64,000 nt of DNA from Desulfuromonas sp. CSMB_57 (GTDB taxonomy: Bacteria; Desulfobacterota; Desulfuromonadia; Desulfuromonadales; Syntrophotaleaceae): the NCBI RefSeq assembly GCF_020194955.2, contig NZ_JAFCIY020000001.1, forward strand, positions 62,001-126,000, in the 5' to 3' direction. Position 1 is the stretch's first letter. Each line of letters starts with the position of its first letter. Both the position numbers and the translations under genes were made by a program. Below are positions 14,136 through 51,312 of this stretch, one piece after another. The notes beneath the pieces are model-generated. The model saw nothing but the letters and a program-made list of their open reading frames with translations, was not told where the DNA came from and ran no database searches.

Positions 14136-14164
14136 TTGACGCAGGGTCAAAGGCAGGGTATTTT
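14136..14164 (+). promoter_or_regulatory. Promoter of metE
   Basis: TTGACG (14136-14141), 17-base spacer, TATTTT (14159-14164), immediately upstream of the cobalamin aptamer. Confidence 0.55.
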
Positions 14165-14169
14165 CACTG

Positions 14170-14345
14170 CCGTTACATAGTATCGAGAGCAGGAAACGGA
14201 AGACGGTGAGAATCCGTCGCGGACGCGCCGCTGTAACCGGTTTCATTTGCTGCCCGGTCACTGGACCTCTTTCGGTCCGGGAAGGCCAGGGCATGGAAAC
14301 AATGCCGGAAGCCAGAAGACGCCCTGCCCTCGGGCCTGACAGCAC
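14170..14345 (+). ncRNA. Cobalamin riboswitch (metE leader)
   Basis: Conserved elements occur in the right order: GGTGAGAATCC (14205-14215), CGCCGCTGTAA (14226-14236), a GTCACTGG variant of the GCCACTG box (around 14257), and the B12 box GCCAGAAGACGCCCTGCC (14311-14328). A terminator hairpin follows at 14434-14457. Binding of adenosylcobalamin should switch off metE, the cobalamin-independent methionine synthase, when the vitamin is available. Boundaries are approximate. Confidence 0.92.
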
Positions 14346-14433
14346 CTCGCGACCCGGGTGCCGAGCAGGAGCGCGGTCCCACGGGCATGGCAGGCGCCGG
14401 CCGTCCCGCTGTGGATAGTGACTCTTTCTTGCA

Positions 14434-14469
14434 CCCATTCTCCCTTTGGAGAATGGGTTTTGCGTTTTT
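14434..14469 (+). terminator. Intrinsic terminator in the metE leader
   Basis: A perfect 10-bp stem, CCCATTCTCC / GGAGAATGGG, with a four-base loop, followed by TTTTGCGTTTTT. It lies between the B12 aptamer and the metE ribosome-binding site, so it is the expression platform of the riboswitch. Confidence 0.88.
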
Positions 14470-14515
14470 GCGCTGTCAGTGCCTTTGCGGTTTTCAACCA
14501 GAAAAGGAGCTGACC

Positions 14516-30903: not shown

Positions 30904-30956
30904 AAAAGAAAACTCCTCTTTGTGCCCAGGCAGAGGTGAGCACCAAGAGGAGCGCG

Positions 30957-30996
30957 AAAACCCGACCGGAAATGCCGTGTGCACGCCCGGGTCGGG
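30957..30996 (-). terminator. Candidate terminator in the btuB leader
   Basis: On the minus strand CCCGACC (30990-30996) pairs with GGTCGGG (30961-30967), followed by TTTT. It lies between the B12 aptamer and btuB, so it is a plausible riboswitch expression platform. Confidence 0.55.
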
Positions 30997-31039
30997 AAGA
31001 ACGTTCGCCTCAGCCCACCTTCCCATAAGCCCGGGGAAG

Positions 31040-31215
31040 ATGTTGTGGGACGTCCGTCCGGCAGGTCTTCTGGCTCGCGAATCATTCTCCGGGCCGCCTT
31101 CCCGATCTTTCCCGATCAGTGGCTTGCTGGCCCATCGTCCTCGCTTACAGTGGCGGGTCCGCGGGGGAGTTGCACCCCTCTTCCCTTTTCAGCCTTGCGG
31201 CACCGGTGGACAAAT
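31040..31215 (-). ncRNA. Cobalamin riboswitch (btuB leader)
   Basis: On the minus strand, in order: GGGTGCAACTCCC (31165-31177), CGCCACTGTAAGC (31143-31155), GCCACTG (31117-31123) and the B12 box GAGCCAGAAGACCTGCC (31060-31076). These are near-consensus elements of the AdoCbl aptamer. Adenosylcobalamin binding should lower expression of the receptor and TonB. Boundaries approximate. Confidence 0.95.
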
Positions 31216-31225
31216 CGACAGTAAA

Positions 31226-33424: not shown

Positions 33425-33469
33425 TCTTTTCTTCCTCCCAGTGTTTGTGCCTTGGAACGGTTCCGGGTA

Positions 33470-33570
33470 GAATCTCCTTTCCACAATGGGAGGCGCCACT
33501 GTTTCCAGCGGAACCCGTCGGCCTGCTGCCGTGGGGACCTTCCCCGTAGGCGGCGAGGCTCGGAGATCTT
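33470..33570 (-). ncRNA. Molybdenum/tungsten cofactor (Moco/Tuco) riboswitch in the aor leader
   Basis: Read on the minus strand the segment has the Moco-RNA motif features in order: GATCTCCGAGCC, GCCTACGG, GGGTTCCGCTGG, ACAGTGGCGCCTCCCA and GGAAAGGAGATT. The outer ATCTCC / GGAGAT form closing stem P1. The central arm is short, as in variants proposed to sense tungsten cofactor rather than Moco, which suits a leader of a tungsten enzyme. Identified by motif memory, not by covariance search. Confidence 0.85.
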
Positions 33571-33631
33571 TTTCACAACCATCGACCCTTTGCCGAGGGG
33601 CGATGCCAGCTCTAGTGGTATGACTGCTGTC

Positions 33632-33841: not shown

Positions 33842-34861
33842 CTATAGCAACAGATATACCATATAGCCCAGCATACTGACCAACAACAACCATGGTGCCA
33901 GGTCCAGAAGTATTCGTTCTTTGTCGGGCATGCTGGTTGTAGCGACTCTTTGATTGACCTGTTCCAGAATCAGACGACTCAACAATTGTGGAGTATGATT
34001 TTCGGCAGCAAAGTATTGACCTCCCGTGATGTCGGCGATCTGTCGCAAAATCCGCTGATCACGTCGGGTTTTTAGGTAGTCGCCCCGATTGTCCTCATAA
34101 AATCCATCAATGCCGGTTTGGCCGGGCCGTCGGATGGGGATGAAAACCTCCGTGTCCCGGCCGGTGCCGACGGTAAATACGGGAATGGTCTTTTGCGCCA
34201 AAAGTTCGGCCCGGGCCAGCAGGGCGGAAGGCTCATTTTCCGTGTCTTCGCCATCGGATATGAGAATCACAATCCCGGCGGCATCCCCTCCGAGGGCTGC
34301 GGCCATGTCCTCGCCGATGTCCATGGCCGCGGCCAGATCGCTGCCTGATTCCGTCAGGTTGGCGAGTTCGGTTTGTTGGATCATGTAACGGAGGAAACCT
34401 TGGTCCCGGGTCGGCGGCACCACCTCGATGCCGTTACGGGCAAAAAAGAACAGACCGGCCTTTTCTCCTGCCAGGTTCTGAAACAATTCCGTCGCGACTT
34501 GCCGGCCCAGATTGAGCCGGTTGGCGATTTCGGAGCCGTTTTGAGACGACGGCAGGCGGCCGACATCCTCGGCCAGCATGGACTTGCTGACATCCAAGCC
34601 GACCGCCAAAATCGCATTGTGACGGGCATCGCCTCGCTGCCAGACCTGAATATGCCAACCTGCCAGGGACAATATCAGAGCGCCGCCGGTCAACAATGCG
34701 ACATTGCAGCGTCCCAGCCCCCGCCACAAGTCGCGCCGGGTTACCCGCCCGACCAGAGTGCGCCGAATATCCAGCAGTCGGAATTCGGTCCACAGACTCC
34801 AGAGCAGGCTCGGCAGCAGGATAGCCAGCAGGATCAGGACCCAGGGGTGGGAAAGTCGCAT
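33842..34861 (-). CDS. vWA-domain membrane protein (BatA/BatB-like), last gene of the MoxR operon
   Basis: 339 residues: two N-terminal membrane helices, a von Willebrand factor A domain facing the periplasm with the MIDAS metal motif GLDVSKSM and ISDGEDTEN, and a C-terminal helix (LAPWLLLVSMLGYMVYLLL). This layout matches the second Bat protein. Such proteins act with MoxR ATPases in assembly or quality control of envelope or metal-containing proteins. AAGGAC lies before ATG 34861. The preceding gene ends 13 bases away. Confidence 0.88.
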   Translation of the reverse strand: MRLSHPWVLILLAILLPSLLWSLWTEFRLLDIRRTLVGRVTRRDLWRGLGRCNVALLTGGALILSLAGWHIQVWQRGDARHNAILAVGLDVSKSMLAEDVGRLPSSQNGSEIANRLNLGRQVATELFQNLAGEKAGLFFFARNGIEVVPPTRDQGFLRYMIQQTELANLTESGSDLAAAMDIGEDMAAALGGDAAGIVILISDGEDTENEPSALLARAELLAQKTIPVFTVGTGRDTEVFIPIRRPGQTGIDGFYEDNRGDYLKTRRDQRILRQIADITGGQYFAAENHTPQLLSRLILEQVNQRVATTSMPDKERILLDLAPWLLLVSMLGYMVYLLL

Positions 34862-34874
34862 AAATTCGTCCTTC

Positions 34875-35690
34875 TTACTTTTCGACCCGCACTTCCAGAG
34901 GAATTCCGGGGGTGAATCCGGCTACATCAGGGATGTAGGCTTCCAGTTGTTCGCGCACGGTTTCCAGGTTTTCCTGCCGAATTTCCGCCAATCCGATGCG
35001 CTGGTATTCGCCAACGCCGACGATAAGTTCCAGATTCCAGCGCGGAATGGTCCGTTGCAAAGAACTGCCGCCGGCCCGATCCACCTGTTTGATGGCCGCC
35101 TTGAAATCCGTGAGGGCGTCGTTCAGGAACTTGGCCGCTTTGCGGCCGTCCTGTTCATAACTCAGCACGCTGTAGGCGAGCAACACCGAAACCCCGGCTT
35201 TCAAGTTCAAGATGGGCCAGGCTGCGGCGGGGGCAAGGTTGGGATGCTGTTGAAGGACTTCCTCGGTGTCCTCTCGCAGGGCCAGCAGACCTTCGTGAAA
35301 GCGTTGCAGCAGGTCCTGGCTGTGTTCGGCCAGATAGGGATTGTCCTGGGCGGCGGCGACCTGGTCGAAATCCTGCAGGGCCTGCCGCCAGCGGCCGTAA
35401 AGATAAAGATAAACGATATCCGGTCGAAAGGGTGCGGTGGCTCGCGTCTGGACTGCCAGTTGCCGAAGTTGTTCGGGATCCGGTGTTTCAATCTGCGAAG
35501 TCACCTTGCCAAGGTATAGATTCATCTGCCGCCAGGTTCTCTGCTGGAGGACGGCGGAGGCCCCCGCGATCATTCCCCAGACGAACAGCGTCAAGCCTGC
35601 CGCGGCCAAGGTCAGCAGCAGTTTCGACCGTATCCGTGGGGCAGCCAGAAAGTCCTGCCATCGATGCATCGGTTTTTTTATCTCTGTCAT
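34875..35690 (-). CDS. Uncharacterised single-pass membrane protein of the MoxR-vWA operon
   Basis: About 271 residues. A cytosolic start of ~25 residues and one membrane helix (LLLTLAAAGLTLFVWGMIAGASAVL) are followed by an all-helical, Gln- and Ala-rich periplasmic domain with a hint of TPR-like spacing (DIVYLYLYGRWRQALQDFDQV, LQRFHEGLLALREDTEE). I do not recognise the family. It sits between the two vWA genes, where Bat operons often place a TPR or scaffold protein, so it may play that part. Start 35690 is the first ATG; the upstream TTG has no advantage. Confidence 0.75.
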   Translation of the reverse strand: MTEIKKPMHRWQDFLAAPRIRSKLLLTLAAAGLTLFVWGMIAGASAVLQQRTWRQMNLYLGKVTSQIETPDPEQLRQLAVQTRATAPFRPDIVYLYLYGRWRQALQDFDQVAAAQDNPYLAEHSQDLLQRFHEGLLALREDTEEVLQQHPNLAPAAAWPILNLKAGVSVLLAYSVLSYEQDGRKAAKFLNDALTDFKAAIKQVDRAGGSSLQRTIPRWNLELIVGVGEYQRIGLAEIRQENLETVREQLEAYIPDVAGFTPGIPLEVRVEK

Positions 35691-35706
35691 GGGTACCCCC
35701 AAAAGG

Positions 35707-36819
35707 TTACAGGCGGCGATAGGCAGGCAGGCAGCGCATGGTCAGATGTGCCACCAGCAGCACCAGGCCCAAAAGGGAGAACCAGGGTCGCGTCCAACGT
35801 GGCTGGAACGTCACCCGGCTCAAGTTGCGGTTGGCTTCAAGAACATCGATTTCCTGGTAGACGGCTTCGATTTGATCCCGATCCAGGCTGCGCGAGGTGA
35901 CGAAGATCCGCCCGATGGGTTTCTCCCCGTAGGCCGGGGTCATGGCCTGCTCCACGGCATCGTCAATCTCTCCGCCAACGGCAATGATATAAAAATGAAC
36001 ACCGATGGCTTTCATGAGTGTGATGAGATTCACCAGGTTGGGCATCCGGCCGCTACGAATATGGGTACGCAGGGTCGGTTCGATGCGTCCGTCGGTAAAC
36101 AGGATGACTGCCATGCCGCGTCCCAGTCCGGCCTGGTGCAGTCGGCGCGGGATGTCCAGCAGGGTGCCGGGTTCGCTGAGCAGAAACTGCCGCAGTCCGG
36201 CGATCTGCTCCACGGTCAGCCGGCTATCCTCGGGCAGCATGGAAAAAAAGGCTGAAAGGGCCAGCCAGACTGCCTCCGAGGCGTTGGTGCCGCCTCCGGC
36301 CCCCAACTCCCGATAGATGCGGGACTGGTTTCGACTGCGGACCAGTTCCAGTTTGTTCTTCAGCAGTTGCTTGTCGAAGGTCAGGGGCGACAGCAGCCTG
36401 GCATAGCTGGAAAAGGCGACCAGGCCGATGTAATCGTCCGCCCGACGCAGGTCGATAAAGGATTCAAGACCATCCAAGGCCAGATCGCCAAGGGTTTCCG
36501 GACTTTCCGGCGAAACCAGCCGCTTCATGGAGCCGGACAGATCCAGGGCCAGGAAGATCCACTTGGATTCGATGAATTCCTCCACCGTGCGGCGGGAGTA
36601 GCCCGGATTGGCCAGAGCCAGGCAGAGACTGACAAAGGCCATGCTGAAAAGGATGGCTTCATAGTTGGCGCGCCAGAAGCCGGGCCGGAGCCCGGCCAAG
36701 TGGGGTCCCACCGCCGGGAAGGGGATTTTCTCCCGACGTTGCCGGCGCACCCGGAGCAGTATCGGGAGCAGTAACGGCAGCAGCAAGGCTGCGGGATATT
36801 GCAGTTCGAATGTCGCCAT
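35707..36819 (-). CDS. vWA-domain membrane protein (BatA-like)
   Basis: 370 residues: N-terminal helix with the BatA-type ALLLPLLLPILLRVRRQR, a second helix (ILFSMAFVSLCLALANPGYSRR), the vWA domain with MIDAS motif LDLSGSM, and a C-terminal helix. A threonine for MIDAS metal binding lies in GGGTNASEAV and the distal Asp in FTDGRIEP. It lies directly between two uncharacterised operon proteins; the vWA partner at 33842 completes the pair. Confidence 0.88.
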   Translation of the reverse strand: MATFELQYPAALLLPLLLPILLRVRRQRREKIPFPAVGPHLAGLRPGFWRANYEAILFSMAFVSLCLALANPGYSRRTVEEFIESKWIFLALDLSGSMKRLVSPESPETLGDLALDGLESFIDLRRADDYIGLVAFSSYARLLSPLTFDKQLLKNKLELVRSRNQSRIYRELGAGGGTNASEAVWLALSAFFSMLPEDSRLTVEQIAGLRQFLLSEPGTLLDIPRRLHQAGLGRGMAVILFTDGRIEPTLRTHIRSGRMPNLVNLITLMKAIGVHFYIIAVGGEIDDAVEQAMTPAYGEKPIGRIFVTSRSLDRDQIEAVYQEIDVLEANRNLSRVTFQPRWTRPWFSLLGLVLLVAHLTMRCLPAYRRL

Positions 36820-36906: not shown

Positions 36907-38772
36907 TCAGTTTTCTGTCGCCGAGTTTCCACCTTCAGCCTGCTTTTCCAGGGACGGCCGCAGCCCCTCAAGCAGTTGACGCAAACGATCCTGGAGGCGG
37001 CTTATGGCCTCGGGTGTCACGGCGCCGGCAGCCAGCAACTTTTCGATACTCTGCAGAACCGCCTCCGCGTCGCCGCGGCAGTCGGCGGGCAACGCTTGGC
37101 CGACGGCCTGCATGAAGACACTCGCGCCGCCGCCGCGCCGGGTTGCCGGCAGGTTCGCCATTGTCGCCAGCAGTTCCCGGCAGGCGGTGCCCATGGCGGC
37201 CAAGTCGTCCATCCCCAGCGCTAGTGTCTCAGTCTGTAGCCAGGTTTGCAGCGTTTGCAAGCGGTGGTTGGCGGCGCGGCTGTCCGGTGCAGGTGCCGGG
37301 CCGTTGACCGGTTTTTGGCGCCGGCCCCAGGCGGCCAAACCCATGAGCGTCATCCCGATGATGGCCAGAGCCGCGCCGCGCAGCAGGCGACGCCGGGCAG
37401 CGCGATCCTTGAAGGGCGGTGGCACCCCGGGGGTGACCACCTTCAGCCCCAAGGCATCGGGAGCTTCGGGCAGCAGGGCGGCAATGCGCACGGCGGGGCC
37501 GGCCAGGGTGTGGCTGTGCAGTGCTTGTCCACCGTTGCGGGTGTCCGTGTAATAGATGGGAACGTCCGGCAGGCGGAACTCCCCTGGAGCGTACAGGGTA
37601 ATTTTACCCGTGAGCACGACGGGGCTGTGGGTCAGGTCGACGGCGCTCAGGGGATGATCGTAGCTGAGTTCCAACAGGGACTGGAAGATGCCGGGCGGTC
37701 GCAGGTTCAGGTTGGCGATGGTGGAGGATTCGATGCGAATACCTTCCAGAAAACGGATTTCGATACGGAAAGGGAGTGGCGTACCGAGGGTCGCGCCGCC
37801 GAGGTCCAGGGTGAAAAGTGCCGACAGCGGCGGCAACAGGGGCAAAAGTTGCGGCACGGCCTGCAACACATGCACATCCTCGGCCAGCAACACAGCTGCT
37901 TGCCAGATGGCCATCCGGCAGGGATCGATATGCACTGTTTCCCGGGTTGGGACCGGCCCGGGGGCAAAATCCACTGCGCCGATTTGGTCCAGCAGTCGCT
38001 GACGGACTTGGGCGTCGGCCGTGGTTTTCCAGGTAATATCGATGCGATCCAGTGGCGCAAAGCGCTGCCGGCCGATTTTCCAGGCCGGTTGCACCCAGAG
38101 CACGGCAGGATCGCGGGCCAGTCTCTCCAGCAAAGTCGTCAGATCGGCGGAGGCGGCTCCGGCCCGCAGGCGGTAGGCGGCCAGGCGCTGGCGCCCGTCG
38201 GGATCCAGCAGATAATAATCGAACACATCCCTGAACCGGAAATGGAAGTCATTCATAAGCTCTGCGGCGGTTTGGGCAGAGGGGTCGACGGTAGCCCATT
38301 CTGATGTCGGGTCTTCGCCGGGAGCCTCGAGGGTGGCTGCATCGGCGGGTAATGGGTCCCCCGCCGGCGTTGGTGCATCCAACTCCTCCGGTATCGCAGC
38401 TTGGAAATCGCTGCTGTCCTGCGCCGGTTCGCCAAGGAAGCCGCTTGGTTCCAGGGCCTGAGATGCCGTGGGCCGCGGCTGGAAAAAGACCACCAGCCAG
38501 GTTCGTTCGGGGGTCGGGATCACCCGCTGCCCCTTGCTATCCAGGTACCAGGGGTGAGCCTCGGCCTGTTGCCAGACCTGCTCGAAACAGCTGACGGCCG
38601 CGGGCGGCAGGGAAAGGTCCTGGCTGTCGGTCGTCCTGGCTTCGGTCCGGTCGGCAAGGGCGGAAGGTTGTTGGCTGTGCGCCGCGGGTTGCAGGATGGA
38701 CAGGACCAGCAGGGCCGCCGGCAGCGCCTGACGCCAGGGTCGAAGGTGCTCTATTGTGAAGAGGAATTTCAT
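36907..38772 (-). CDS. Large uncharacterised exported membrane protein of the MoxR-vWA operon
   Basis: About 621 residues: signal peptide (ALPAALLVLSILQPAAHS), a long periplasmic part with beta-rich segments (TLDLGGATLGTPLPFRIEI, LTGKITLYAPGEFRLPDVPI), one helix near residue ~465 (GAALAIIGMTLMGLAAWG) and a helical cytosolic tail. The position and beta-then-helix layout recall BatD, but I see no clear BatD sequence signature. The first ATG (38784) has no ribosome-binding site; 38772 is preceded by GGAAC. Role inferred only from the operon. Confidence 0.75.
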   Translation of the reverse strand: MKFLFTIEHLRPWRQALPAALLVLSILQPAAHSQQPSALADRTEARTTDSQDLSLPPAAVSCFEQVWQQAEAHPWYLDSKGQRVIPTPERTWLVVFFQPRPTASQALEPSGFLGEPAQDSSDFQAAIPEELDAPTPAGDPLPADAATLEAPGEDPTSEWATVDPSAQTAAELMNDFHFRFRDVFDYYLLDPDGRQRLAAYRLRAGAASADLTTLLERLARDPAVLWVQPAWKIGRQRFAPLDRIDITWKTTADAQVRQRLLDQIGAVDFAPGPVPTRETVHIDPCRMAIWQAAVLLAEDVHVLQAVPQLLPLLPPLSALFTLDLGGATLGTPLPFRIEIRFLEGIRIESSTIANLNLRPPGIFQSLLELSYDHPLSAVDLTHSPVVLTGKITLYAPGEFRLPDVPIYYTDTRNGGQALHSHTLAGPAVRIAALLPEAPDALGLKVVTPGVPPPFKDRAARRRLLRGAALAIIGMTLMGLAAWGRRQKPVNGPAPAPDSRAANHRLQTLQTWLQTETLALGMDDLAAMGTACRELLATMANLPATRRGGGASVFMQAVGQALPADCRGDAEAVLQSIEKLLAAGAVTPEAISRLQDRLRQLLEGLRPSLEKQAEGGNSATEN

Positions 38773-38796
38773 GGTCGGTTCCATTTCGGATGCGGG

Positions 38797-39663
38797 TCAA
38801 ACCCGGGCCGCCAGACGCCGGGCAAAAAAGGTGTTGACCTTTTCCTGGATCGCGGGGTCGGTAACCGTCAATAGGGCGGAATCGATGTCGGCCCGCGCCA
38901 ATTGGCGCACCAGGTGTTTCCGCCAGCGGCCCACCAGGGCGTTGTATTGCTGCCGGCGCGTCAGGTCGAGGGCCTGGGTGACACCGGTTTCGACATCCCG
39001 GATGTGGACCTGCACGTCCTGCATCTCCGGCAACCGGAATTCCACCTCTGCCAGGATGTGCAGGGCCACCAGTTCATGGGCCGGATAGCGGCCGCCGGCG
39101 GCCGCTTCGAGTTGGCCGCGCAGGTCGCCGATTTCGGCATTGAAATCGGACAGGATCACTCCCAGGCAGGCCGGCAGGCGTTTGAAGAGATAGGCCAGGG
39201 CCGGCTGCAGACGGGTTTGGCGGCAATCCGCCACACCGGCCCGATCCAGTGCCGTCAGCAGGCGCTGCAGTTGCTGCGGTGCGGCGCTGGGCGGAAGGTA
39301 GTCCAGCACCCGGTCGGCAAACAGCAGCAGACCACAAGGGTTGTTGGCATGCAGCGCCGTCCAGGCAAGACTTTCGACCAGATCCCTGACCAGCGCCAAT
39401 TTGCCGCCGCAGGTCATGGACGGACTCAGGTCGCAAATCAGCACCAGGTTGTAGGCGCTGTCCTTGAGAAATTCGCGGACATAGAGTTCGCCGCTGCGGG
39501 CTCGTGCCTTCCAGTCGATGTGCCGGAAACTGTCTCCCGCCAGGTACTTGCGCAACCCCCAGAATTCATAGCCGGTACCTTTGTCCAGACCCGCCCAGTC
39601 GCCGGCCATGGCATGGTGGGGGGGGTGCTTGGGCTGAATCTGAAAACGGAACCTCGGCGGCAT
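38797..39663 (-). CDS. DUF58-domain protein
   Basis: About 288 residues. The central motif DSFRHIDWKARARSGELYVREF marks DUF58, which has a degenerate vWA-like fold (LVLICDLSPSMTCG resembles a MIDAS). DUF58 genes almost always follow moxR. Start at 39663 (MPPRFRF) has GAGG 9 bases upstream and lies 10 bases after the moxR stop; longer in-frame starts would overlap moxR. Soluble or membrane-associated partner of MoxR by family context. Confidence 0.9.
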   Translation of the reverse strand: MPPRFRFQIQPKHPPHHAMAGDWAGLDKGTGYEFWGLRKYLAGDSFRHIDWKARARSGELYVREFLKDSAYNLVLICDLSPSMTCGGKLALVRDLVESLAWTALHANNPCGLLLFADRVLDYLPPSAAPQQLQRLLTALDRAGVADCRQTRLQPALAYLFKRLPACLGVILSDFNAEIGDLRGQLEAAAGGRYPAHELVALHILAEVEFRLPEMQDVQVHIRDVETGVTQALDLTRRQQYNALVGRWRKHLVRQLARADIDSALLTVTDPAIQEKVNTFFARRLAARV

Positions 39664-39673
39664 GGCCTTGACC

Positions 39674-40702
39674 TCATCGGCCCGCAGGCGCATAGGGAGA
39701 GATGCCGCGCAGGATATCCCCCAGCAGTTCGGCACTGTCGATGCCTTCCAGAATGGCCGCGTCGCTCAGGATCAAGCGGTGTCCCAGCACGGTGGCGGCG
39801 CTGTCATCCACATCGTCGAAAGTCACGTAATCGCGGCCGCGCAGAAACGCCAATCCCTTGCAAAAAGCGATGAGATGTTCTCCGCCGCGGGGCGAGGCGC
39901 CGACGGTGATGAATTGCCGGACCGCCGGCAGGGCATCCGGCCGGGAGGGCCGGGTCCGCAGACAGATCTCCAGAATATAGGCAATGACCGCCGGCGCCAC
40001 ACGAATCCGGCGGGCTACATGGTCCTGCATGGCCACCGCTTGGTCGGGTGCCAGCAGGCGGGGAACCGACTGCTGGATCAGGGCGAAATCCTCACTCTTT
40101 TTCTGCAGCAGTTCCGATTCCTTGTGACGAGGCGGATAGCCGATGGCCAACTTGGCGATAAAGCGGTCCAGTTGGGCTTCCGAAAGGGGGTAGGTACCCA
40201 GTTGTTCGACGGGATTCATGGTGGCCAGAACCATGAACAGGTCCGGCAGCCGGTACTGGTCGCGATCGATGCTGACGACCTTTTCCTGCATGGCTTCCAA
40301 CAGGGCGGACTGGACCTTGGGGGCCGCCCGGTTGATTTCATCGGCCAGCAGGATGTTGCAGAACACCGGTCCCTGCTGGAATGAAAAACTGCCCGTGGCC
40401 TGATTGTAGACCGTGGTCCCCGTGATGTCGCTCGGCAATTTGTCCGGAGTGAACTGGATACGCTTGAAATCGCCGCCGATGGTGCGGGCAAAGGTTGCCA
40501 CGGTCAGGCTTTTGGCCAGCCCCGGAACCCCCTCGAGCAGGATATGCCCCCGTGCCAGGAGGGTGCAGAGTATGGCTTCGATGAGCCGGTCCTGGCCGAT
40601 GATGACCTTGGCCATTTCCCGGCCGACGCGTTCCAATAATCGGCGATAGTCGGCGCCGTTTTCCGAATTTAGGGAGGTTCCCGTGATTTCCGCCTGCGGC
40701 AT
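39674..40702 (-). CDS. moxR: MoxR-family AAA+ ATPase
   Basis: 342-residue chaperone-type ATPase. Walker A GVPGLAKS, Walker B LLADEINRA, sensor 1 ATMNPVEQ and the arginine-finger region LDRF are visible; the C-terminal lid contains GASPRGGEHL typical of MoxR. First gene of a six-gene cluster (moxR, DUF58, exported protein, vWA, helical protein, vWA). AGGAGG lies upstream of the ATG. Such ATPases use vWA partners to reach substrates in or across the membrane. Which protein they mature here is unknown. Confidence 0.93.
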   Translation of the reverse strand: MPQAEITGTSLNSENGADYRRLLERVGREMAKVIIGQDRLIEAILCTLLARGHILLEGVPGLAKSLTVATFARTIGGDFKRIQFTPDKLPSDITGTTVYNQATGSFSFQQGPVFCNILLADEINRAAPKVQSALLEAMQEKVVSIDRDQYRLPDLFMVLATMNPVEQLGTYPLSEAQLDRFIAKLAIGYPPRHKESELLQKKSEDFALIQQSVPRLLAPDQAVAMQDHVARRIRVAPAVIAYILEICLRTRPSRPDALPAVRQFITVGASPRGGEHLIAFCKGLAFLRGRDYVTFDDVDDSAATVLGHRLILSDAAILEGIDSAELLGDILRGISPYAPAGR

Positions 40703-40780: not shown

Positions 40781-41836
40781 TCAGAAAAAAACGAATTTGC
40801 GACGATCGCGAATGATCAGGTACAGGAAAAAGGGCCCGCCCAACAGGGCCGTCAGGACACCGATTCGCAATCCGCCTTCGCTCCAGAGCCTGACCGCGCA
40901 GTCGGAGTAGACCACCAGGGCGCCGCCCAGCAGGCCGGCCGCCGGGATCAGGAGCCGGTTGTCCGGCCCGACAAAGCTGCGCATCACATGGGGGGCGATG
41001 AGGCCCACAAAACCGATGGCGCCGGCCACCGCAATGGCCCCGCCGGTCAGCATGGAAGCGAAAAAGAGCAGCATGTTGCGCGAGCGGGCGACATTGACGC
41101 CGAGATTGGCGGCGACCTCCTCGTTAAGCATGATGATATTCAGATCCCGGGCATACAACATGGAGGCCAAAGTGCCGAACAGGGCGATGGCCAGGATGAT
41201 CTGCACATGGTCCCAGGAGCGATTGGTCAGATCGCCCATCAGCCAACCGATAATCTGCCGCGCCATTTCGAACTGATCCGTGGACAGCACGATGACCACT
41301 GCGGTCAGGGCGTTGAATATGGCGTTGAGAGCGATGCCGCCCAGTAACAAAGTATAGCGCGAAGTCAGGCCGCCGCTGGTGGCGATGCCCAGTACGATGA
41401 GCATGGACAGAAAGGCGAACAGGATGGCGAACAGCGGCACGGCGTGGACGCTGCCGGCGGCGAACCCCAGGTAGATGGCGGTCACGGCGCCGAGGGCGGC
41501 GCCGGCGCTGGTGCCGATGATGCCGGGTTCGGCCATGGGGTTCTTGAAGATGCCCTGCATGACGGTACCGGCCACGCCCAGGGCGAAGCCGACCAGGGCG
41601 CCGGTCAGGGTGCGGGGAATGCGGCCATACCAGATGATGGCCAGGGCGGCGGGATCCGTTTCGCCGGGTTGGCCGAAGATGCGGGTGACCACGATGCGGC
41701 CGATATCCGTCAGGCCGATCTGCCAGGGACCGAAGCTGATGGACAGGAACATGCCGGACAGCAGTACCCCCAGGGTCAGCAGCAGAAACACACCGGCCCG
41801 CGGGGTTATGCGCCGCGTCCCGCGTTTACTGGCCAT
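40781..41836 (-). CDS. btuC: FecCD/BtuC-family ABC transporter permease
   Basis: 351-residue inner-membrane permease with about ten helices. Family motifs: RIPRTLTGALVGFALGVAGTVMQGIFKNPMAEPGIIGTSAGAALGA (read as adjacent blocks) and the coupling-helix segment near GLIAPHVMRSFVGPDNRLL. It imports iron chelates, heme or cobalamin. The start overlaps the end of the binding-protein gene by 11 bases. Cobalamin is favoured because of the adjacent EutBC fusion and the B12 receptor elsewhere in the window, but no riboswitch precedes this set, so the substrate is open. Confidence 0.85.
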   Translation of the reverse strand: MASKRGTRRITPRAGVFLLLTLGVLLSGMFLSISFGPWQIGLTDIGRIVVTRIFGQPGETDPAALAIIWYGRIPRTLTGALVGFALGVAGTVMQGIFKNPMAEPGIIGTSAGAALGAVTAIYLGFAAGSVHAVPLFAILFAFLSMLIVLGIATSGGLTSRYTLLLGGIALNAIFNALTAVVIVLSTDQFEMARQIIGWLMGDLTNRSWDHVQIILAIALFGTLASMLYARDLNIIMLNEEVAANLGVNVARSRNMLLFFASMLTGGAIAVAGAIGFVGLIAPHVMRSFVGPDNRLLIPAAGLLGGALVVYSDCAVRLWSEGGLRIGVLTALLGGPFFLYLIIRDRRKFVFF

Positions 41837-42920
41837 ACAGCAAGCCTGCCAGATAGTTCACGCTGGCCACCAGGTACTGGGAAGCGCTCAACAGGTAGAC
41901 GCTGGGCATCTTGCGAATGTTGCGCTGCTGTACCGCCTTGGCCGTGGCCAGAATCGGCTGGTTGTACAATTGCTGATCGAAAGTACTCTCCTCGGGCACG
42001 ATGATGATATCCGGATTCCATTTCAACAGGGTTTCATAATCGATCTGCTTGAAATACTTCAGGCCCCGTTCCGCCGCCAGGTTGGTAACGCCGAGCAGCC
42101 GGCACATGGAATCGAAGGTCGTGCCGCTGCCGGCCACATAGCCCATGTTGTCGTAGAAGAGCACCGTCAAAGGGCGGCTGTCGGCCGGTTTCCGGGTCCG
42201 CACAAACGCCTGGATTTGACGCAGCTTGGCTTCCATGGTGTCGACCAGGCGCTTGGCACTGGGCTCTTCGCCGACCAGGCGGCCGATGAGCAGGATCTGT
42301 TCCTCGATGGCCTGCAGGTCGCCGAAAAAGCCCAGTCGCACGGCGGGGACCCGGGCGACCTGCAATTGACGCAGGAAGTTTTCGTTGGAATAGAAACTGG
42401 TCAGGACCAGATCCGGCTTGAAGCCGATGACGATTTCCGCGTCTTCCGTACCGTAGGTCGGCAACTTTGCCGGGAGGCTCTTGGCGATAAAGGAGAAGCG
42501 CGGATCCTTGCAGCTTTTGTGCACCGCGATGATGCGATCCCGCGGCATGATGGCCCAGACGATTTCGGTGATGCCGATGGCCTGGGGAATGACGCGCCGG
42601 GGTTGGCGGGCCAGGCGAACCGTCCGGGTCTCCTCGCCGATGCGGTCGGTGGCGAAATCGAAGGACTGGTAGCGATAACGGACGACCTTGGGATAGGCCT
42701 CCCGGCAGCAGGCGTCCGGTAGATGGGCATCCGTGAGGGCGCCCATCAGGGCATCCATCTCCAGGGGAAACTGCCGGATGCGGCGCTGCCCTTCCGCGGC
42801 CAGGCCGGTGCTGCCGAATAGCAGCAGGCACAGAATCGCCGGCAGCAGGCCGTAACACGGGTTAACGGTAAAACAACAGCGAAACGCCATGTTGCGTGGG
42901 AATCTCTTCAACGCCGACAT
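41826..42920 (-). CDS. btuF: Periplasmic substrate-binding protein of the BtuF/FecB family
   Basis: 364 residues. After a long signal region (hydrophobic core GLLPAILCLLLFGSTGLAA) come the two lobes typical of helical-backbone binding proteins: PRRVIPQAIGITEIVWAIMP, PTYGTEDAEIVIGFKPDLVL and WNPDIIIVPEE. Start 42920 has an excellent AAGGAGGT, 5 bases upstream, and lies 59 bases inside the 3' end of the ATPase gene. The length exceeds E. coli BtuF (266) by ~70 residues, mostly at the N-terminus (Cys-Cys near DACCREAYPK). It may bind cobalamin or another metal chelate. Confidence 0.85.
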   Translation of the reverse strand: MSALKRFPRNMAFRCCFTVNPCYGLLPAILCLLLFGSTGLAAEGQRRIRQFPLEMDALMGALTDAHLPDACCREAYPKVVRYRYQSFDFATDRIGEETRTVRLARQPRRVIPQAIGITEIVWAIMPRDRIIAVHKSCKDPRFSFIAKSLPAKLPTYGTEDAEIVIGFKPDLVLTSFYSNENFLRQLQVARVPAVRLGFFGDLQAIEEQILLIGRLVGEEPSAKRLVDTMEAKLRQIQAFVRTRKPADSRPLTVLFYDNMGYVAGSGTTFDSMCRLLGVTNLAAERGLKYFKQIDYETLLKWNPDIIIVPEESTFDQQLYNQPILATAKAVQQRNIRKMPSVYLLSASQYLVASVNYLAGLLYGQ

Positions 42921-43638
42921 GGAATACCTCCTTGATGCGCGGCTGGGCAAAAGCATCTTCCGGCGCGCCGTGAAAGACCAGACGGCCGGATGAAAGCAGA
43001 CTTACGGTGTCGCAGTAGCGACGGGCCAGATCCAGATCGTGAATGCTCATCAGCACGGTTTTGCCTTGCTTTGCCAGGTTTTCCAGCAACGCCATGATGT
43101 CCAGCTTGTGGCGGATATCCAGGGCGCTGGTCGGCTCATCCAGCAGGATGAGGGGAGCTTCCGTAGCCAGGGCGCGGGCCAGGCTGACGAGTTGACTTTC
43201 GCCGCCGGACAGTTCGTTGATGAAGCGCTCCCGCAGGGCGTGGCAACCGGTCACCTCCAGGGCCTGATCGATGATGTCGAAGTCCCGCTGGCGCAGCCAC
43301 TGCAGTCGCTTGAGGTGGGGATGTCGGCCCATGGCGACGAAATCGGCGACGCCGATGGAAAATTCCACCCGCGTATCCTGGGGAACCAGGGTCACCAACC
43401 GGCTCAGATGCTGGCGGGACAGGGTGCGGGCATCCTGTCCCGCTATCAGAATCCGGCCCCGTTGCGGCCGCCAGATGCGGCAGACGTTTTTCAGCAGGGT
43501 GCTTTTTCCGGAACCGTTGGGGCCGACCAGACCATGAATGCCGCCCTGCGGGAAGGCACAGCTGATGGAATGCAGAATGGTCTGCCCGCCGATTCCGAAA
43601 AACAGTTGGTCGAGTTGCAGAATGGCCGCGGCCGACAT
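42862..43638 (-). CDS. btuD: ABC transporter ATP-binding protein, BtuD/FepC-like
   Basis: 258-residue ATPase for the BtuC-type permease. Walker A GPNGSGKSTLL, Q-loop LVPQDTR, signature LSGGESQLVSLARAL and Walker B LILLDEPTSALD are intact. Start is uncertain: ATG 43638 (MSAAAILQL) fits the family; a GTG at 43698 would add 20 residues. The gene follows a membrane-protein gene by ~47-107 bases, so the transporter could be transcribed with the eutBC cluster. Confidence 0.88.
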   Translation of the reverse strand: MSAAAILQLDQLFFGIGGQTILHSISCAFPQGGIHGLVGPNGSGKSTLLKNVCRIWRPQRGRILIAGQDARTLSRQHLSRLVTLVPQDTRVEFSIGVADFVAMGRHPHLKRLQWLRQRDFDIIDQALEVTGCHALRERFINELSGGESQLVSLARALATEAPLILLDEPTSALDIRHKLDIMALLENLAKQGKTVLMSIHDLDLARRYCDTVSLLSSGRLVFHGAPEDAFAQPRIKEVFHVGVEEIPTQHGVSLLFYR

Positions 43639-43744
43639 GACAGTTTTTTCCGTCCTTGAAAAATCGGGTTGGGTTCGTCGCCAGTGTAACGTATTCACAT
43701 GGAACCGCCTAGGCCCATTCCAAAAACCGGAGGTGTTTATCTGC

Positions 43745-44566
43745 TCACCGGTTGTTGTCGTCGACCAGGCGGCAGCGCCAGGCCAGGGGCAGGCTGAACT
43801 TGGCGGCGGCGGTCAGCAGGGTGCCGGCAAGAACGATGGCCCACATGACGCCATGATCGAGGTGTGCCCTGAACAGCGAGGTGACCACCGTCGTACCCCA
43901 AAGCAGGGTCAGCCCCAAGAGGAGCTGAATATTCTGACTCATGGCATGGATGCCCCAGAAATTGTCTGAGATGCCGCTCAGGCGCCCGTGCCGCAGCTTG
44001 ATTTCGATGAGCTTGAACCAGACTCGTCCTTCGGCCACCTGGGCGGAACCGTCGCAGATGTGGTGCAGCAGGTAGAGACCGATGAGCAGGTATTTGCTTA
44101 GCGGCCAGCCGTTGAACAGGGTCGTGAAAAAGGGCGGATAGCAGAGCACCAGCATCACGGCCCCCACGGCCTGGCCGGAGGCGATCAATACCAGGGCGCG
44201 AATCATTTTTTGCAGCTGGAAGAAGGTATCGGGGATGCTCTCCAGGTAATCGACGAAGGACGAAACCTTGAGGCTGCTGATGAAGGTGATGCCGGGGTAA
44301 ACATAGCGGGTCAGAACGCCGAGTACCGCAGCGACCTGGTACTCGGTCTGGGCCATGGAAAACATGGTGTACAGCACGGCCCCTTCCAGGATGCTTTTAC
44401 CGGTGGTGTAGCTGATGTTACCGATTTCGCCGTAGCGGTAGAAGGGGGAGATGGACAGGGCGCGAAACCAGAGGCGGGATTTCCGCCAGACATCCACCAG
44501 CAGCCCTGCGCGGTAATCGGCTGGTTCCCCGCCGCTGGCATGGGGGTCCGTGGGCTGGTGGGGCAT
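43745..44566 (-). CDS. Uncharacterised multi-pass membrane protein next to eutBC
   Basis: 273 residues. A ~40-residue cytosolic start is followed by about five to six hydrophobic segments (EGAVLYTMFSMA, VAAVLGVLTRYVYPGITFI, MIRALVLIASGQAVGAVMLVL, YLLIGLYLLHHI, IQLLLGLTLLWGTTVV, VMWAIVLAGTLLTAAAKF). I recognise no family. ATG 44566 has AAGGA 7 bases upstream, better than a TTG two codons earlier. It lies 90 bases after eutBC, past a 14-bp hairpin, and just before btuDFC. It could be a transporter or an anchor for the lyase system; neither is shown. Confidence 0.75.
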   Translation of the reverse strand: MPHQPTDPHASGGEPADYRAGLLVDVWRKSRLWFRALSISPFYRYGEIGNISYTTGKSILEGAVLYTMFSMAQTEYQVAAVLGVLTRYVYPGITFISSLKVSSFVDYLESIPDTFFQLQKMIRALVLIASGQAVGAVMLVLCYPPFFTTLFNGWPLSKYLLIGLYLLHHICDGSAQVAEGRVWFKLIEIKLRHGRLSGISDNFWGIHAMSQNIQLLLGLTLLWGTTVVTSLFRAHLDHGVMWAIVLAGTLLTAAAKFSLPLAWRCRLVDDNNR

Positions 44567-44601
44567 GGGCAATCCTTTTGCGGATAAGGGAAGCGGACAA
44601 C

Positions 44602-44656: not shown

Positions 44657-46924
44657 CTACATGCTCTTCAGCAGTTTAACCGTTTCCCGGGCCGCAAAGG
44701 CCGGGTCGACACCGGTGTCGGCGATACCGGAGATGACCTTGGTCACGTCATGATCGACGGTTCCGGCCTTGGCCCAGGTTGCCGGGGCAACCTTGGTGAT
44801 ATAGACCGAATAGGCCCGGTGCTCGGTGCCCGGCCGTTCGCCGATGATGTGGATGATGGCCTTGGGCCGTTGGGCGGGATCCTTGAACAGGATGTCACCG
44901 GCCCGGTAGCCGGCCCGTACGCGGCCGCCGATGACCACGATGTTTTCCCTGGCGGAGGTCATGCCGGCCTTCTTGAGTTCCGCCTGCAGTTCCTTCATGT
45001 ACGGCATGAGGTGGTCGGGGTCCATGATGGCGCGGGCGTTGAGGCCGTCGGAGATGAGAATCTGCACGTCCGGCGCCTTGCCGCCCCAGGCCGCGCGCAT
45101 CTTGTCCAGAGAGGCCACGGCCGCGTCGCTGAATTCCTCGCCGGCAGCCGGATTGGCGATGTAATCCTCCCGATCCCCGGCCTTGGTGCGCACCACCACC
45201 GCGTTGGGGATGGTGGCGATGAACTGCGGGGTCAGTTCCGCATAGAGGCTGACCTTGGCATCGTTGTACAGGTCATGGATACGCTTGTTGGTGACCGGTT
45301 CCAGATCCCAGATGTTCTTGCCGTGGCCGATGGCCAGATCGACGCCGCGGCCGCGTACCCGGCCAACGGCTTTCTGCCCTTCGGCATAGATGTCCTTCAT
45401 GGGTCGCTTGTCACCCTTGGCCAGGCGGTACTGGTAGTAGACCCAGATGGGATCGCCGAAATGCTTGGTGGGCCGGCCGTTGGCATCGATGACCTGGATT
45501 TTTTTGAAGAAGTTCCACATATCGTCGTTGACCTTCATGCCGAACTTTTCCCGGATGCGGACATGGTCCTGGTAACCGGTGGTCAGGTAGCTGAGCATGG
45601 GGTCGTTGCGGGTCGGCAGGGCCATGAGATAGGCCGGCATGGCCGGCGCGATCTGATCCTGGCACCATTCCAGGTCGTCGAGGGTGACGGGCATGTGCAG
45701 GGTGGAGCAGATATCCAGACCGAGGGTCAGGCCGTGCAGTTTGCCCATGACGATGTCTTCCAGGCAGACCCGCACCAGTTGCTCGCGGGTCTTGAACACT
45801 TCCGGACCGATGAAGCCGGCGACATCGTTGAGATGCAGCCAGACCTTGTCCACCGGGATGCCCTTGACCTTGGCGATTTCCTGCTTGAGGGCCCGGGCGA
45901 AACCGTACTTGCGGGACTCATGGACCATCATGTCGAAGCCGTGGCCATGACCGTTGGTGAAGTCGGCGCCCTGGCCGGTTTCAAAATACAGACCGTAAGG
46001 GCCGGTCCGCATGCGGGCGTACTTCATCATCTTGTCGATGCTGATATCGAAAGTCTGGTTGGCCGTATCCACCCCGGCCAGACTCTGGAACCAGATGGCC
46101 GTGGAGCCCGGTGTTTCCTTTTCGACCTCGGCCTGGACATCGATGTGTGCCAGTACGCACCAGGGGTTGTATTTGTCGACGGCGAAGGTCTGCATCACGT
46201 CCTTCAGAGCCAGTTGGATGGCCTTGACCATATGGGTCTGGCTGTCCACCGGGTTGGTGCCGACCACCAGATCGCCAACACCGAAGGCGTAGGCGTTGAA
46301 GACCTGCCAGACGATGTCCTCGGGGTTGTCCGTGGGCGAGTTGGGCTGGATGCGGGCGCTATGGTAGCCCTTGGCACCGATCTTGGAGTCGCCGAGGGGA
46401 TTGAAGATCTTCTGGCCGACCCGGGTCAGTTCGGCGTTGCTCATCAGCTTGACGACATTGGCGATGACGTCGCTGTGCAGGCCCGGCATGATGGCCTTGA
46501 TGTCCTTCTCCGGCTTGGTCAGGATGAAGGTTTTCAGTTCACCCAGGGTCCAATTGCGGATCTTGTTGTACTGGGCCTTGTCGGTGGTGTTGGTGATGAG
46601 CTTGAACTGGTTGTCGACGAACAGCGGCTTGTCGATCAGGTCGCGGATGCGGGTGTTGGCCAGCAGCCGTCGGGCATTCTCGCGGCTGGCCTCGTTGGCC
46701 GCCGCCACGCCGATGGTCTGATCCCCCTCTTTGAACACGGCGGCAGCGCCCACTACCTGGCGGTACAGGGTCTGGTCAAACTTGCCCTTGGTACGCTGGA
46801 CATACTTGAAGACGTCCTCACCGGGCCGGACATCGCGGATGGTGACCGCCCCGGCCAGACCGGACAGGAAGGTCATCGCCAGGCAGATGGCAACGCCCAG
46901 TAGCAATTTTCCCTTGTTTCGCAT
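44657..46924 (-). CDS. eutBC: Exported EutB-EutC fusion: ethanolamine ammonia-lyase, large and small subunits in one chain
   Basis: Ethanolamine ammonia-lyase splits ethanolamine into acetaldehyde and ammonia with adenosylcobalamin. Residues 1-26 are a Sec signal peptide (basic MRNKGK, hydrophobic core, AGA before Val27). Residues ~30-505 align with EutB; active-site positions known in E. coli are kept: Arg191 and Gln193 (RIQPN), Asn224 (GTNPV), Glu315 (LYFETGQG), Asp404 (LGLDIC). Residues ~520-755 align with EutC (VQILISDGL, IIGERPG), but its N-terminal GRAGxR region is reduced. Total 755 residues, near the sum of the separate subunits. ATG 46924 has GGAGG 7 bases upstream, so the signal peptide is not a start artefact. 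The fusion and export are unusual; no EutA or shell genes are in the window. Confidence 0.9.
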   Translation of the reverse strand: MRNKGKLLLGVAICLAMTFLSGLAGAVTIRDVRPGEDVFKYVQRTKGKFDQTLYRQVVGAAAVFKEGDQTIGVAAANEASRENARRLLANTRIRDLIDKPLFVDNQFKLITNTTDKAQYNKIRNWTLGELKTFILTKPEKDIKAIMPGLHSDVIANVVKLMSNAELTRVGQKIFNPLGDSKIGAKGYHSARIQPNSPTDNPEDIVWQVFNAYAFGVGDLVVGTNPVDSQTHMVKAIQLALKDVMQTFAVDKYNPWCVLAHIDVQAEVEKETPGSTAIWFQSLAGVDTANQTFDISIDKMMKYARMRTGPYGLYFETGQGADFTNGHGHGFDMMVHESRKYGFARALKQEIAKVKGIPVDKVWLHLNDVAGFIGPEVFKTREQLVRVCLEDIVMGKLHGLTLGLDICSTLHMPVTLDDLEWCQDQIAPAMPAYLMALPTRNDPMLSYLTTGYQDHVRIREKFGMKVNDDMWNFFKKIQVIDANGRPTKHFGDPIWVYYQYRLAKGDKRPMKDIYAEGQKAVGRVRGRGVDLAIGHGKNIWDLEPVTNKRIHDLYNDAKVSLYAELTPQFIATIPNAVVVRTKAGDREDYIANPAAGEEFSDAAVASLDKMRAAWGGKAPDVQILISDGLNARAIMDPDHLMPYMKELQAELKKAGMTSARENIVVIGGRVRAGYRAGDILFKDPAQRPKAIIHIIGERPGTEHRAYSVYITKVAPATWAKAGTVDHDVTKVISGIADTGVDPAFAARETVKLLKSM

Positions 46925-47067
46925 GTGGCACCTCCGTTGGTGGGTTGGAATGCTCGGAGCCTGCGCGACCTCGACAGATGCTGATGCCGACCGGGTTGGC
47001 CGCAACGTTTACAACGCTTTGCTTCTGGTTTATGAATCTTTCAGGGCCGTAATCTTTTCCGGCATCA

Positions 47068-48195
47068 TTACTGCCGGTGCTGCTTGGCTTCTTCCCACAT
47101 GCTGTTGAAGGCTTCTTCGGTTTCTTCGCTCATGACCCGCCACAGGGCGACGGTGCTGAAGTAATCGTTGTCGCCAACGTGGAAAGCGGCCTTTTGCTCG
47201 GCGCTGAGGCGGTCGCCGACATCGGCGATGGCCGGGGTGACGCCCTGGGCTTTGACCACGTCCGCCTGCTGGTCTTCGGAGAGCATGAAATTAATCCATT
47301 CTTCAGCCAGGATTTTGGTCATGCCCTGGGCGCCGGCCCCGATATACCAGGCGTCGATCCAGGCCGTGCCGCCCTCCTTGGGACTGGCCAGTTTCCATTT
47401 GCCGCCCTTGGCGTTGGCCTGGGCGGTGGCAAAGCCCCAATCCGTGGCCAGGGCCAGTTGCGGAAATTCGTCGGGATTGGCCGATCCGTCCCAGAGGCTT
47501 TTGGCGTTTTGGGCCAGGACATTGAGCTTCTCCTGGATTTTGGCCCGATCCAGGCGCTTGATGTCGAAAATGTCGTCATATTGGTATCCCAGGGCCAGGG
47601 CCGTTATCCAGACATTGACCTTCGGGAAGTTGTTGTTGATGGTGTATTTGCCGGCATACTGGGGATCCCAGAGGATGTTCCAACTGTCCGGTGCCGCGGC
47701 GACGACTTCCGTATTGTAGGACAGGCCGTAGGGCCCGCAGTTGTAGGGCACGCCGTAACGTTTGCCGTTATGGAAGGCAGTCTGGTCGTCGCGGAATACC
47801 GGCAGCAGTTTCTGCAGGTTGGGGATGTTGGCAACATCCACCGCCTGCACGAACTCGTTGCCGGCCGTAAAGCTGTAGAAACGGGGGGTCTGGGGCAGTT
47901 CGATGGGCGGTGAAATCAGGTCGGCGGTGTTGTTTTTGACGGCTTCGAAAAATTCATCCTGATCGGTGGGGTTGTGAATCTGGATATCCAGGTCCAGTTG
48001 GTACTTGTCTTTGACCAGTTGCTTGAAGGCATCCACATAGGGTTCGGCATAACCCTCCCAGCAGGTGATGCGCAGGGTGGCCTTGGCCAGCACCGGTTCT
48101 TCCTGTTTCTTCTTGCAGGCCGGGGTGAGAAGCAGGGCCAGAGCCGTCAGGGCGAACCCGGCGGATATGGCGGCGGTCTTGAGGAAACGCTTCAT
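47068..48195 (-). CDS. PotD/PotF-like solute-binding lipoprotein, no permease attached
   Basis: 375 residues. Signal peptide with a lipobox-like LTPAC at Cys27. The core is a type II periplasmic binding protein of the spermidine/putrescine class (LRITCWEGYAEPYVDAF, DLISPPIEL, YGVPYNCGPYGLSYNT, GTAWIDAWYIGAGA). Such proteins bind small cationic amines; ethanolamine is a chemically reasonable ligand. No PotBC-type permease or ATPase is adjacent, so it may hand its ligand to the exported EutBC instead of a transporter. GGAGG precedes ATG 48195. eutBC starts 143 bases later. Confidence 0.88.
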   Translation of the reverse strand: MKRFLKTAAISAGFALTALALLLTPACKKKQEEPVLAKATLRITCWEGYAEPYVDAFKQLVKDKYQLDLDIQIHNPTDQDEFFEAVKNNTADLISPPIELPQTPRFYSFTAGNEFVQAVDVANIPNLQKLLPVFRDDQTAFHNGKRYGVPYNCGPYGLSYNTEVVAAAPDSWNILWDPQYAGKYTINNNFPKVNVWITALALGYQYDDIFDIKRLDRAKIQEKLNVLAQNAKSLWDGSANPDEFPQLALATDWGFATAQANAKGGKWKLASPKEGGTAWIDAWYIGAGAQGMTKILAEEWINFMLSEDQQADVVKAQGVTPAIADVGDRLSAEQKAAFHVGDNDYFSTVALWRVMSEETEEAFNSMWEEAKQHRQ

Positions 48196-48405: not shown

Positions 48406-49152
48406 CTAGAAGTTGAAGGTCAGGTTCAGGGCGCCCACGGTTTGCGTGTCGATGGCATCCTTGGCTGCACTGCTGATGCCCGAGGAGAAGATGAAGATCG
48501 GGCTCAGGGTCAACTGCTCGGTCATTTTGAAATCGAAGCTGGCGCTCAGTTCATAGTTGTGGAAGCCGGCATAGTCGCCGACGGCGTAGTCGGAATGCAT
48601 GTTATAGGAGACCAGCGCCCCCAGGTTGAGGGTGGTATTGCCCAGCCAGCGACTGAGATCGAAGCTGTGACTGATGTCGAAAGTGAAAAACAGACCGTCC
48701 TCATCGGCCTCGTCCCAATCCCACCAGGCCTTGATGGTCGGCGAGAGCAGGGTATTGAGGGTCAGATGAGCAAAAACTTCGTTGGTATCTTTGTCTCCGG
48801 GGGTGAAGTCAAGGCTATACCAGATGTTGCCGATAGTGAGTGTGGCCATGTCTCCAAGATTCATCGCATAGCTCAGAATGATATCCGTTTCATTCATCTC
48901 GCCGGAATCCAAGGTGGGACCCGACTTCAACTGCCAGTTGTGCCAGGTGCTGAGGGTCCAGCCGCCGGCGGTGAGGTCGATGCCGCCCTGGATGGTGGGA
49001 CGGCTTTCGCTCAGGTTGAAACCACGCCACAGATACTTGTCCCAGATACCGACATAGACATCCCCTTCGACCTCGATGGCAGCCTGGGCGGTCGGGACGA
49101 ATCCGACGGCCAACAGCAGAACAGCGGCCAACAAAACGCTCCACTTTTTCAT
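48406..49152 (-). CDS. Outer-membrane beta-barrel protein, TorF/gcw_chp-like putative porin
   Basis: 248 residues. Signal peptide to AQAAIE, then amphipathic beta-strands throughout and a C-terminal Phe (LNLTFNF) as expected for BAM substrates. The start of the barrel, YLWRGFNLSESRPTIQGGIDL, matches the family annotated as TorF/TIGR02001 putative porins. GGAGG precedes ATG 49152. It is the promoter-proximal gene of the eutBC cluster and may admit the amine; substrate is not shown. Confidence 0.8.
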   Translation of the reverse strand: MKKWSVLLAAVLLLAVGFVPTAQAAIEVEGDVYVGIWDKYLWRGFNLSESRPTIQGGIDLTAGGWTLSTWHNWQLKSGPTLDSGEMNETDIILSYAMNLGDMATLTIGNIWYSLDFTPGDKDTNEVFAHLTLNTLLSPTIKAWWDWDEADEDGLFFTFDISHSFDLSRWLGNTTLNLGALVSYNMHSDYAVGDYAGFHNYELSASFDFKMTEQLTLSPIFIFSSGISSAAKDAIDTQTVGALNLTFNF

Positions 49153-51175: not shown

Positions 51176-51312
51176 GGCGCCCAGCATAGCCGAGAGCTGC
51201 CCGGCAGCAAAGGGCAAATTGCACCCGGTCCCGGCGATGCTGGCTTCGGGGCGGCGGCTGTGCTATTGTCGGCGGTAGCGAAGAGGGATATTCTGCAAAA
51301 AGGATCTGTTCC

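Follow-up and report, generated by a model that had tools for sequence, protein, structure and literature searches.

A fused ethanolamine ammonia-lyase with a signal peptide

The window, by which we mean the whole 64,000-nucleotide stretch of Desulfuromonas sp. CSMB_57 DNA analyzed here, carries a long series of minus-strand genes that includes a fused ethanolamine ammonia-lyase gene (Table 1). In minus-strand order, a TorF-like porin, a PotD-like binding protein, the EutB-EutC fusion (EutBC), the membrane protein TM1, and BtuD-, BtuF-, and BtuC-like proteins are followed by the MoxR, DUF58, P625, VWA, 275-residue, and second VWA proteins, then by an aldehyde:ferredoxin oxidoreductase and a BtuB-like receptor, each preceded by a riboswitch, and by TonB. 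The eutBC reading frame runs from ATG 46924 to the stop codon at 44659-44657.

Table 1. Features of the eutBC locus, in minus-strand order (window coordinates)
Feature	Coordinates	Strand	Basis
TorF-like outer-membrane porin (gcw_chp, slightly below its NCBIfam cut-off); the group begins with this gene	48406..49152	-	
Lipoprotein-type solute-binding protein (SBP_bac_6, PotD-like); no permease of its own nearby	47068..48195	-	
GGAGG ribosome-binding site, 6 nt 5' of the EutBC ATG	46931..46935	-	
EutB-EutC fusion (ethanolamine ammonia-lyase), predicted exported, 755 aa	44657..46924	-	ORF, domain profiles, fold
Sec-type signal peptide, residues 1-26 (MRNKGKLLLGVAICLAMTFLSGLAGA)	46847..46924	-	sequence, hydrophobicity, homologue conservation
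EutB domain, residues 54-487	45464..46765	-	Pfam, fold
EutC domain, residues 555-755	44660..45262	-	Pfam, fold
TM1, membrane protein with a half-MFS fold, immediately downstream of EutBC	43745..44572	-	
BtuD-like ABC ATPase; best NCBIfam match corrinoid transporter ATPase, below cut-off	42862..43698	-	
BtuF/iron-complex type substrate-binding protein	41826..42956	-	
BtuC-like permease (FecCD family)	40781..41836	-	
MoxR-type AAA+ ATPase	39674..40702	-	
DUF58 protein with VWA MIDAS motif (DLSPS)	38797..39735	-	
P625: large predicted periplasmic domain, one C-proximal TM anchor	36907..38784	-	
Membrane VWA protein (MIDAS DLSGS); charge pattern predicts a periplasmic VWA domain	35707..36819	-	
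Single-TM anchored protein, 275 aa, no family assigned, conserved in the cassette	34875..35702	-	
Second membrane VWA protein (MIDAS DVSKS)	33842..34861	-	
Molybdenum/tungsten cofactor riboswitch, 5' of aldehyde oxidoreductase	33458..33577	-	
Aldehyde:ferredoxin oxidoreductase, no signal peptide (cytosolic)	31694..33424	-	
Cobalamin riboswitch, 5' of BtuB-like receptor	31043..31222	-	
BtuB-like TonB-dependent receptor	28963..31026	-	
TonB protein	28055..28936	-	

The Pfam profiles for EutB (479.7 bits, cut-off 25; E = 1.1e-143) and EutC (103.5 bits, cut-off 25.8; E = 1.4e-29) match the 755-residue chain one after the other, in agreement with the sequence-only reading, which had described a single chain with EutB followed by EutC. 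The NCBIfam EutB subfamily model is also passed (633 bits versus a cut-off of 554); the NCBIfam EutC equivalog model gives 80.9 on the window protein, below its cut-off of 230. The same reading had called a clear signal peptide behind a strong GGAGG start, and both are present: the N-terminus is laid out as MRNKGK, a hydrophobic core, and LAGA/VT, and its best 12-residue mean hydrophobicity is 2.57, versus 1.13 in the N-terminus of E. coli EutB. Besides ATG 46924, the in-frame starts are codon 7 and ATG codon 17, both within the signal peptide, and then GTG at codon 58, with none between codons 17 and 58. Initiation at codon 58, the first start past the hydrophobic core, would drop E36, D37, F39, G47, F49, D50, and Y54, all of which precede it and are invariant in the first alignment (18 relatives); a cytosolic form is thus not available, and the concern that translation might begin downstream of the signal finds no signal-free version of the protein.

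Active site and fold

The substrate-binding residues R160, Q162, N193, E287, and D362 of E. coli EutB correspond to R191, Q193, N224, E315, and D404 of the window protein, exactly as had been proposed, and each is conserved in 81 of the 81 members of the exported EutBC family (the window protein and 80 relatives), as are V326 and F329. The mature chain was modeled with AlphaFold from an alignment of 71 sequences; the model, which covers neither the hexamer nor the bound cofactor, has a mean pLDDT of 91 and a pTM of 0.87. Comparison with E. coli EutBC indicates that both subunit folds are kept (EutB, 3abo_A: Z 41.7, 432 aligned, rmsd 2.6; EutC: Z 23, 232 aligned), the next-best fold matches being diol and glycerol dehydratases (Z 19). 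Although the canonical E. coli enzyme (PDB 3abo) shares these folds and the five substrate residues, it consists of two chains, lacks an export signal, is found in a microcompartment, and is only ~32% identical in EutB. The modeled fold and the invariant active site argue for a working ethanolamine ammonia-lyase.

Conservation of export signals across the family

A homologue search with one genome per species yielded 80 fused relatives (58-79% identity) from Desulfobacterota, Bacteroidota, rhizobia, and one Myxococcus, nearly all of full length (L073 and L102 are truncated at contig ends). Judged by motif, hydrophobicity, and conservation, all 80 homologues carry an export signal, which is less clear in L070 (contig end) and L056 (unusual start), and the combination of fusion and signal peptide described for the window protein is therefore common to the family. 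With the window protein included, 45 signals are of the Sec type and 36 of the Tat or Tat-lipoprotein type. The Sec-type signals belong to Desulfobacterota and their relatives, and a Shine-Dalgarno sequence precedes the signal-bearing start at 41 of 44 Sec-type loci. The Tat signals read S-R-R-x-[FL]-L in rhizobia and Syntrophaceae and R-[RK]-x-F-L in Bacteroidota, where the motif is often followed by a lipobox cysteine, also found in a Myxococcus. The signals diverge strongly in sequence while export is retained, and signals of this kind are absent from canonical EutB of the same phylum.

On the tree, the Sec and Tat labels are clustered, and the Sec label requires 3 changes, 2 of them forced by well-supported branches. 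The export route thus appears to have switched at least twice with export retained, which would be hard to explain unless export itself were under selection. In a wider tree, the exported proteins form one fully supported clade apart from canonical EutB. Just outside this clade branches a fused EutBC of 38% identity with no signal (G077:C277:6143-8170, L115), from an 8.9-Mb assembly that also has an exported copy; the fusion may therefore be older than export.

The current picture of adenosylcobalamin (AdoCbl) eliminases places them in the cytosol, often inside microcompartments that confine their toxic aldehyde products, and this would suit an N-terminal helix that holds EutBC on the cytoplasmic side of the membrane, with catalysis in the cytosol. 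The ethanolamine ammonia-lyase of Acinetobacter baumannii, for example, is membrane-associated without any signal and has not been reported as exported (PMC9426561). For the window protein, however, we consider such anchoring very improbable: the positively charged MRNKGK before the core orients the chain outward, an AGA/V cleavage site follows the core, and the twin-arginine signals and Tat-lipoprotein cysteines of the homologues would be useless as cytosolic anchors. The proposal that an AdoCbl enzyme works outside the cytoplasm is instead strongly supported at the sequence level by the signals in 80/80 relatives, the lack of a downstream start, and the folds. As far as sequences can tell, EutBC proteins of this clade are a real and widespread exported variant of ethanolamine ammonia-lyase, and a clade exporting them by either route would put AdoCbl radical chemistry outside the cytoplasm. 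A close relative, called simply eutB in databases, occurs in Sinorhizobium meliloti, which makes the prediction testable now.

The fused enzyme of the S. meliloti megaplasmids (plasmid matches H39-H54) has 58% identity and is annotated as plain EutB or has no gene listed.

Gene neighborhood

In Sec-type genomes, eutBC is often the first gene of an operon with TM1, a BtuCDF-like transporter, and a MoxR/DUF58/VWA cassette, and homologous loci retain the TorF-like porin ahead of EutBC. In raw counts that ignore kinship, TM1 follows EutBC at 22 of the 32 Sec-type loci whose flanking sequence is long enough, versus 0 of 35 Tat-type loci, and MoxR lies near EutBC at 16 of 27 versus 0 of 31. In several cases, a Sec-type locus lacking the cassette is one of two copies in its genome, and the cassette sits by the other. 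P625 was found in 7 Sec-type genomes of those tested, in 0/4 Tat-type genomes, and in 0/16 canonical-EutBC genomes; neither it nor the 275-residue protein matches a Pfam or NCBIfam model above cut-off. TM1 belongs to no Pfam or NCBIfam family and has no significant Foldseek match; VIA-align assigns it a half-MFS transporter fold (Z near 16). TM1, present behind most exported EutBC genes of the Sec type, has invariant GExG, LHH, and EGRxWFK motifs.

Much of this arrangement was described in the 2012 genome paper on Pelobacter carbinolicus, which reports two fused genes, eutBC1 and eutBC2 (Pcar_0491 and Pcar_0467), no eutA, and most of the same neighbors: a solute-binding protein, a multi-TM protein, a corrinoid-type ABC transporter, VWA proteins, an ATPase, and a cobalamin outer-membrane channel (PMC3543383). 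The section of that paper on eutBC mentions neither a signal peptide nor export and suggests that the neighbors serve substrate uptake (PMC3543383). The fusion, the operon, and the missing EutA are thus already known; we found no report of an exported ethanolamine ammonia-lyase among open-licence papers.

Pelobacter-like genomes have two exported EutBC copies (L034/L038 on contig JASKKK010000006.1, L032/L035, L033/L036, and L048/L052). One copy is followed by TM1, with corrin biosynthesis genes in L032 to L034 and a cobalamin riboswitch ahead of the set in L032; the other is followed by BtuCDF-like and MoxR/VWA genes. The window genome has a single copy.

The pairs L032/L035, L033/L036, and L034/L038 bear on the physiological substrate, which might be choline or another amino alcohol instead of free ethanolamine: the part of the P. 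carbinolicus paper that deals with these genes suggests that one copy may be for choline (PMC3543383), and the adjoining PotD-like binding protein belongs to a polyamine family. Such a substrate seems unlikely, given that the five ethanolamine-binding residues of E. coli EutB are invariant, also in both paralogues, and a quaternary ammonium group would be expected to alter some of them.

EutBC shares its operon with BtuCDF-like genes and lies near a cobalamin riboswitch and BtuB, as might a protein that had lost catalysis and was exported to bind or scavenge cobamides. We find this hardly credible, since binding alone would not require the substrate residues, which are also kept in Tat-type relatives whose neighborhoods hold no cobalamin transport genes, and since acetaldehyde-handling genes are among the neighbors of EutBC. 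An aldehyde oxidoreductase adjoins EutBC in several loci, the genes for acetate kinase and phosphate acetyltransferase line up with a Tat-type EutBC (L117 6944-12639, G276), and an alcohol dehydrogenase and a phosphoketolase lie near the rhizobial genes, all of which fits an acetaldehyde-making enzyme.

Three candidate features of these neighborhoods were rejected. No cobalamin riboswitch directly controlling EutBC was found in the window or at 7 Sec-type or 6 Tat-type loci, the one in the window preceding the BtuB-like gene. The aldehyde oxidoreductase is not periplasmic: its true start is MGKIFRV, with no signal, and the 86 codons upstream lie outside the protein. The rhizobial neighbors, guessed from their length to be cobalamin genes, are in fact an alcohol dehydrogenase, a phosphoketolase, a GH94 protein, and a glucoamylase.

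EutA, EutH, and microcompartments

We compared 19 genomes with exported EutBC with 16 genomes of the same phylum with ordinary EutBC. Microcompartment shell genes (PF00936) are absent from the window genome and from all 19 exported-EutBC genomes, versus 5 of the 16 canonical genomes with such genes. Full-length EutA is missing from 18/19 genomes with the exported enzyme and from 14/16 with the canonical one; the window genome has only a 44-residue match in a 427-aa ORF. The sole full-length EutA of the exported set (G253:C175:13779-15173) occurs in a genome with no shell proteins. The loss of EutA therefore does not set the exported enzyme apart, and that of the EutH permease, found in 0/35 genomes, is uninformative.

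The sequence-only reading had pointed to a paradox, in that the known reactivase, EutA, needs ATP and AdoCbl is made inside the cell. The first part is softened by the canonical genomes without EutA and by the A. baumannii enzyme, which resembles exported EutBC in having neither metabolosome nor EutA, supports growth all the same, and differs in its separate EutB and EutC genes, with no signal predicted on EutC (PMC9426561); missing EutA is thus not remarkable by itself. On the second part, a CobA-type adenosyltransferase was found, and AdoCbl synthesis is expected in the cytosol. Export would raise the questions of how the periplasm is supplied with AdoCbl or keeps it, and by what means the enzyme regains activity when cytosolic ATP is out of reach.

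Proposed mechanism

Taken together, the sequences and the model make it probable that EutBC is a competent fused AdoCbl ethanolamine ammonia-lyase, exported by Sec here and by Tat elsewhere, that splits ethanolamine in the periplasm, the acetaldehyde being oxidized inside. Ethanolamine would pass the outer membrane through the porin, periplasmic EutBC would split it into acetaldehyde and ammonia, and acetaldehyde would diffuse into the cytosol, where the tungsten-type aldehyde:ferredoxin oxidoreductase encoded nearby would oxidize it. A reaction outside the cytosol may stand in for the microcompartment that contains acetaldehyde in other bacteria, which raises the further question of the periplasm as a containment space.

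The fold of the reductive dehalogenase PceA is unrelated to that of EutBC, and PceA uses neither AdoCbl nor an adenosyl radical. PceA likewise depends on a cobamide, carries a Tat signal peptide, and is bound to the membrane, so that exported cobamide enzymes have a precedent with different chemistry (PMC5500849). Tat export could bring AdoCbl-loaded EutBC out, whereas export by Sec would deliver an unfolded chain without cofactor, which, AdoCbl being made in the cytosol, would need a periplasmic AdoCbl supply and loading outside.

Among the loci seen, the MoxR/VWA cassette occurs only with the Sec type, and our best guess, a tentative one by analogy, is that it serves the loading or reactivation of Sec-exported EutBC. 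At the window locus, a MoxR AAA+ ATPase, DUF58, and membrane VWA partners lie in one operon of the mxa type, and the cassette resembles, in gene content and order only, the mxaRSACKL genes of periplasmic methanol dehydrogenase, in what we take to be their detailed order: MoxR, DUF58, an anchored periplasmic protein, VWA, an anchored protein, and VWA. The client there is methanol dehydrogenase, whose activation requires MoxR (PMC3893208, PMC13300288); here it would be EutBC. In other systems, MoxR proteins act with VWA partners to insert a cofactor or restore activity to an enzyme (PMC11432383, PMC3893208). That the MoxR/DUF58/P625/VWA cassette is specifically a trans-membrane reactivase of periplasmic EutBC is possible, if on balance doubtful. 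A cytosolic MoxR ring would then hydrolyze ATP and, through the membrane VWA proteins, remodel EutBC so that spent cobalamin is expelled or AdoCbl is inserted, and the BtuCDF-like proteins would recycle the corrinoid; Tat-type relatives, leaving the cytosol folded and loaded, would not need the cassette. If so, the task of EutA would have been solved a second time, by unrelated means and across a membrane.

Two further loci of the window relate to cobalamin. Just upstream of the porin gene lies a radical-SAM protein with B12-binding and DUF4080 domains (49481-51217, minus strand), and a cobalamin riboswitch (14139-14340, plus strand) precedes a cobalamin-independent methionine synthase gene (14387-16795, plus strand), an ordinary arrangement.
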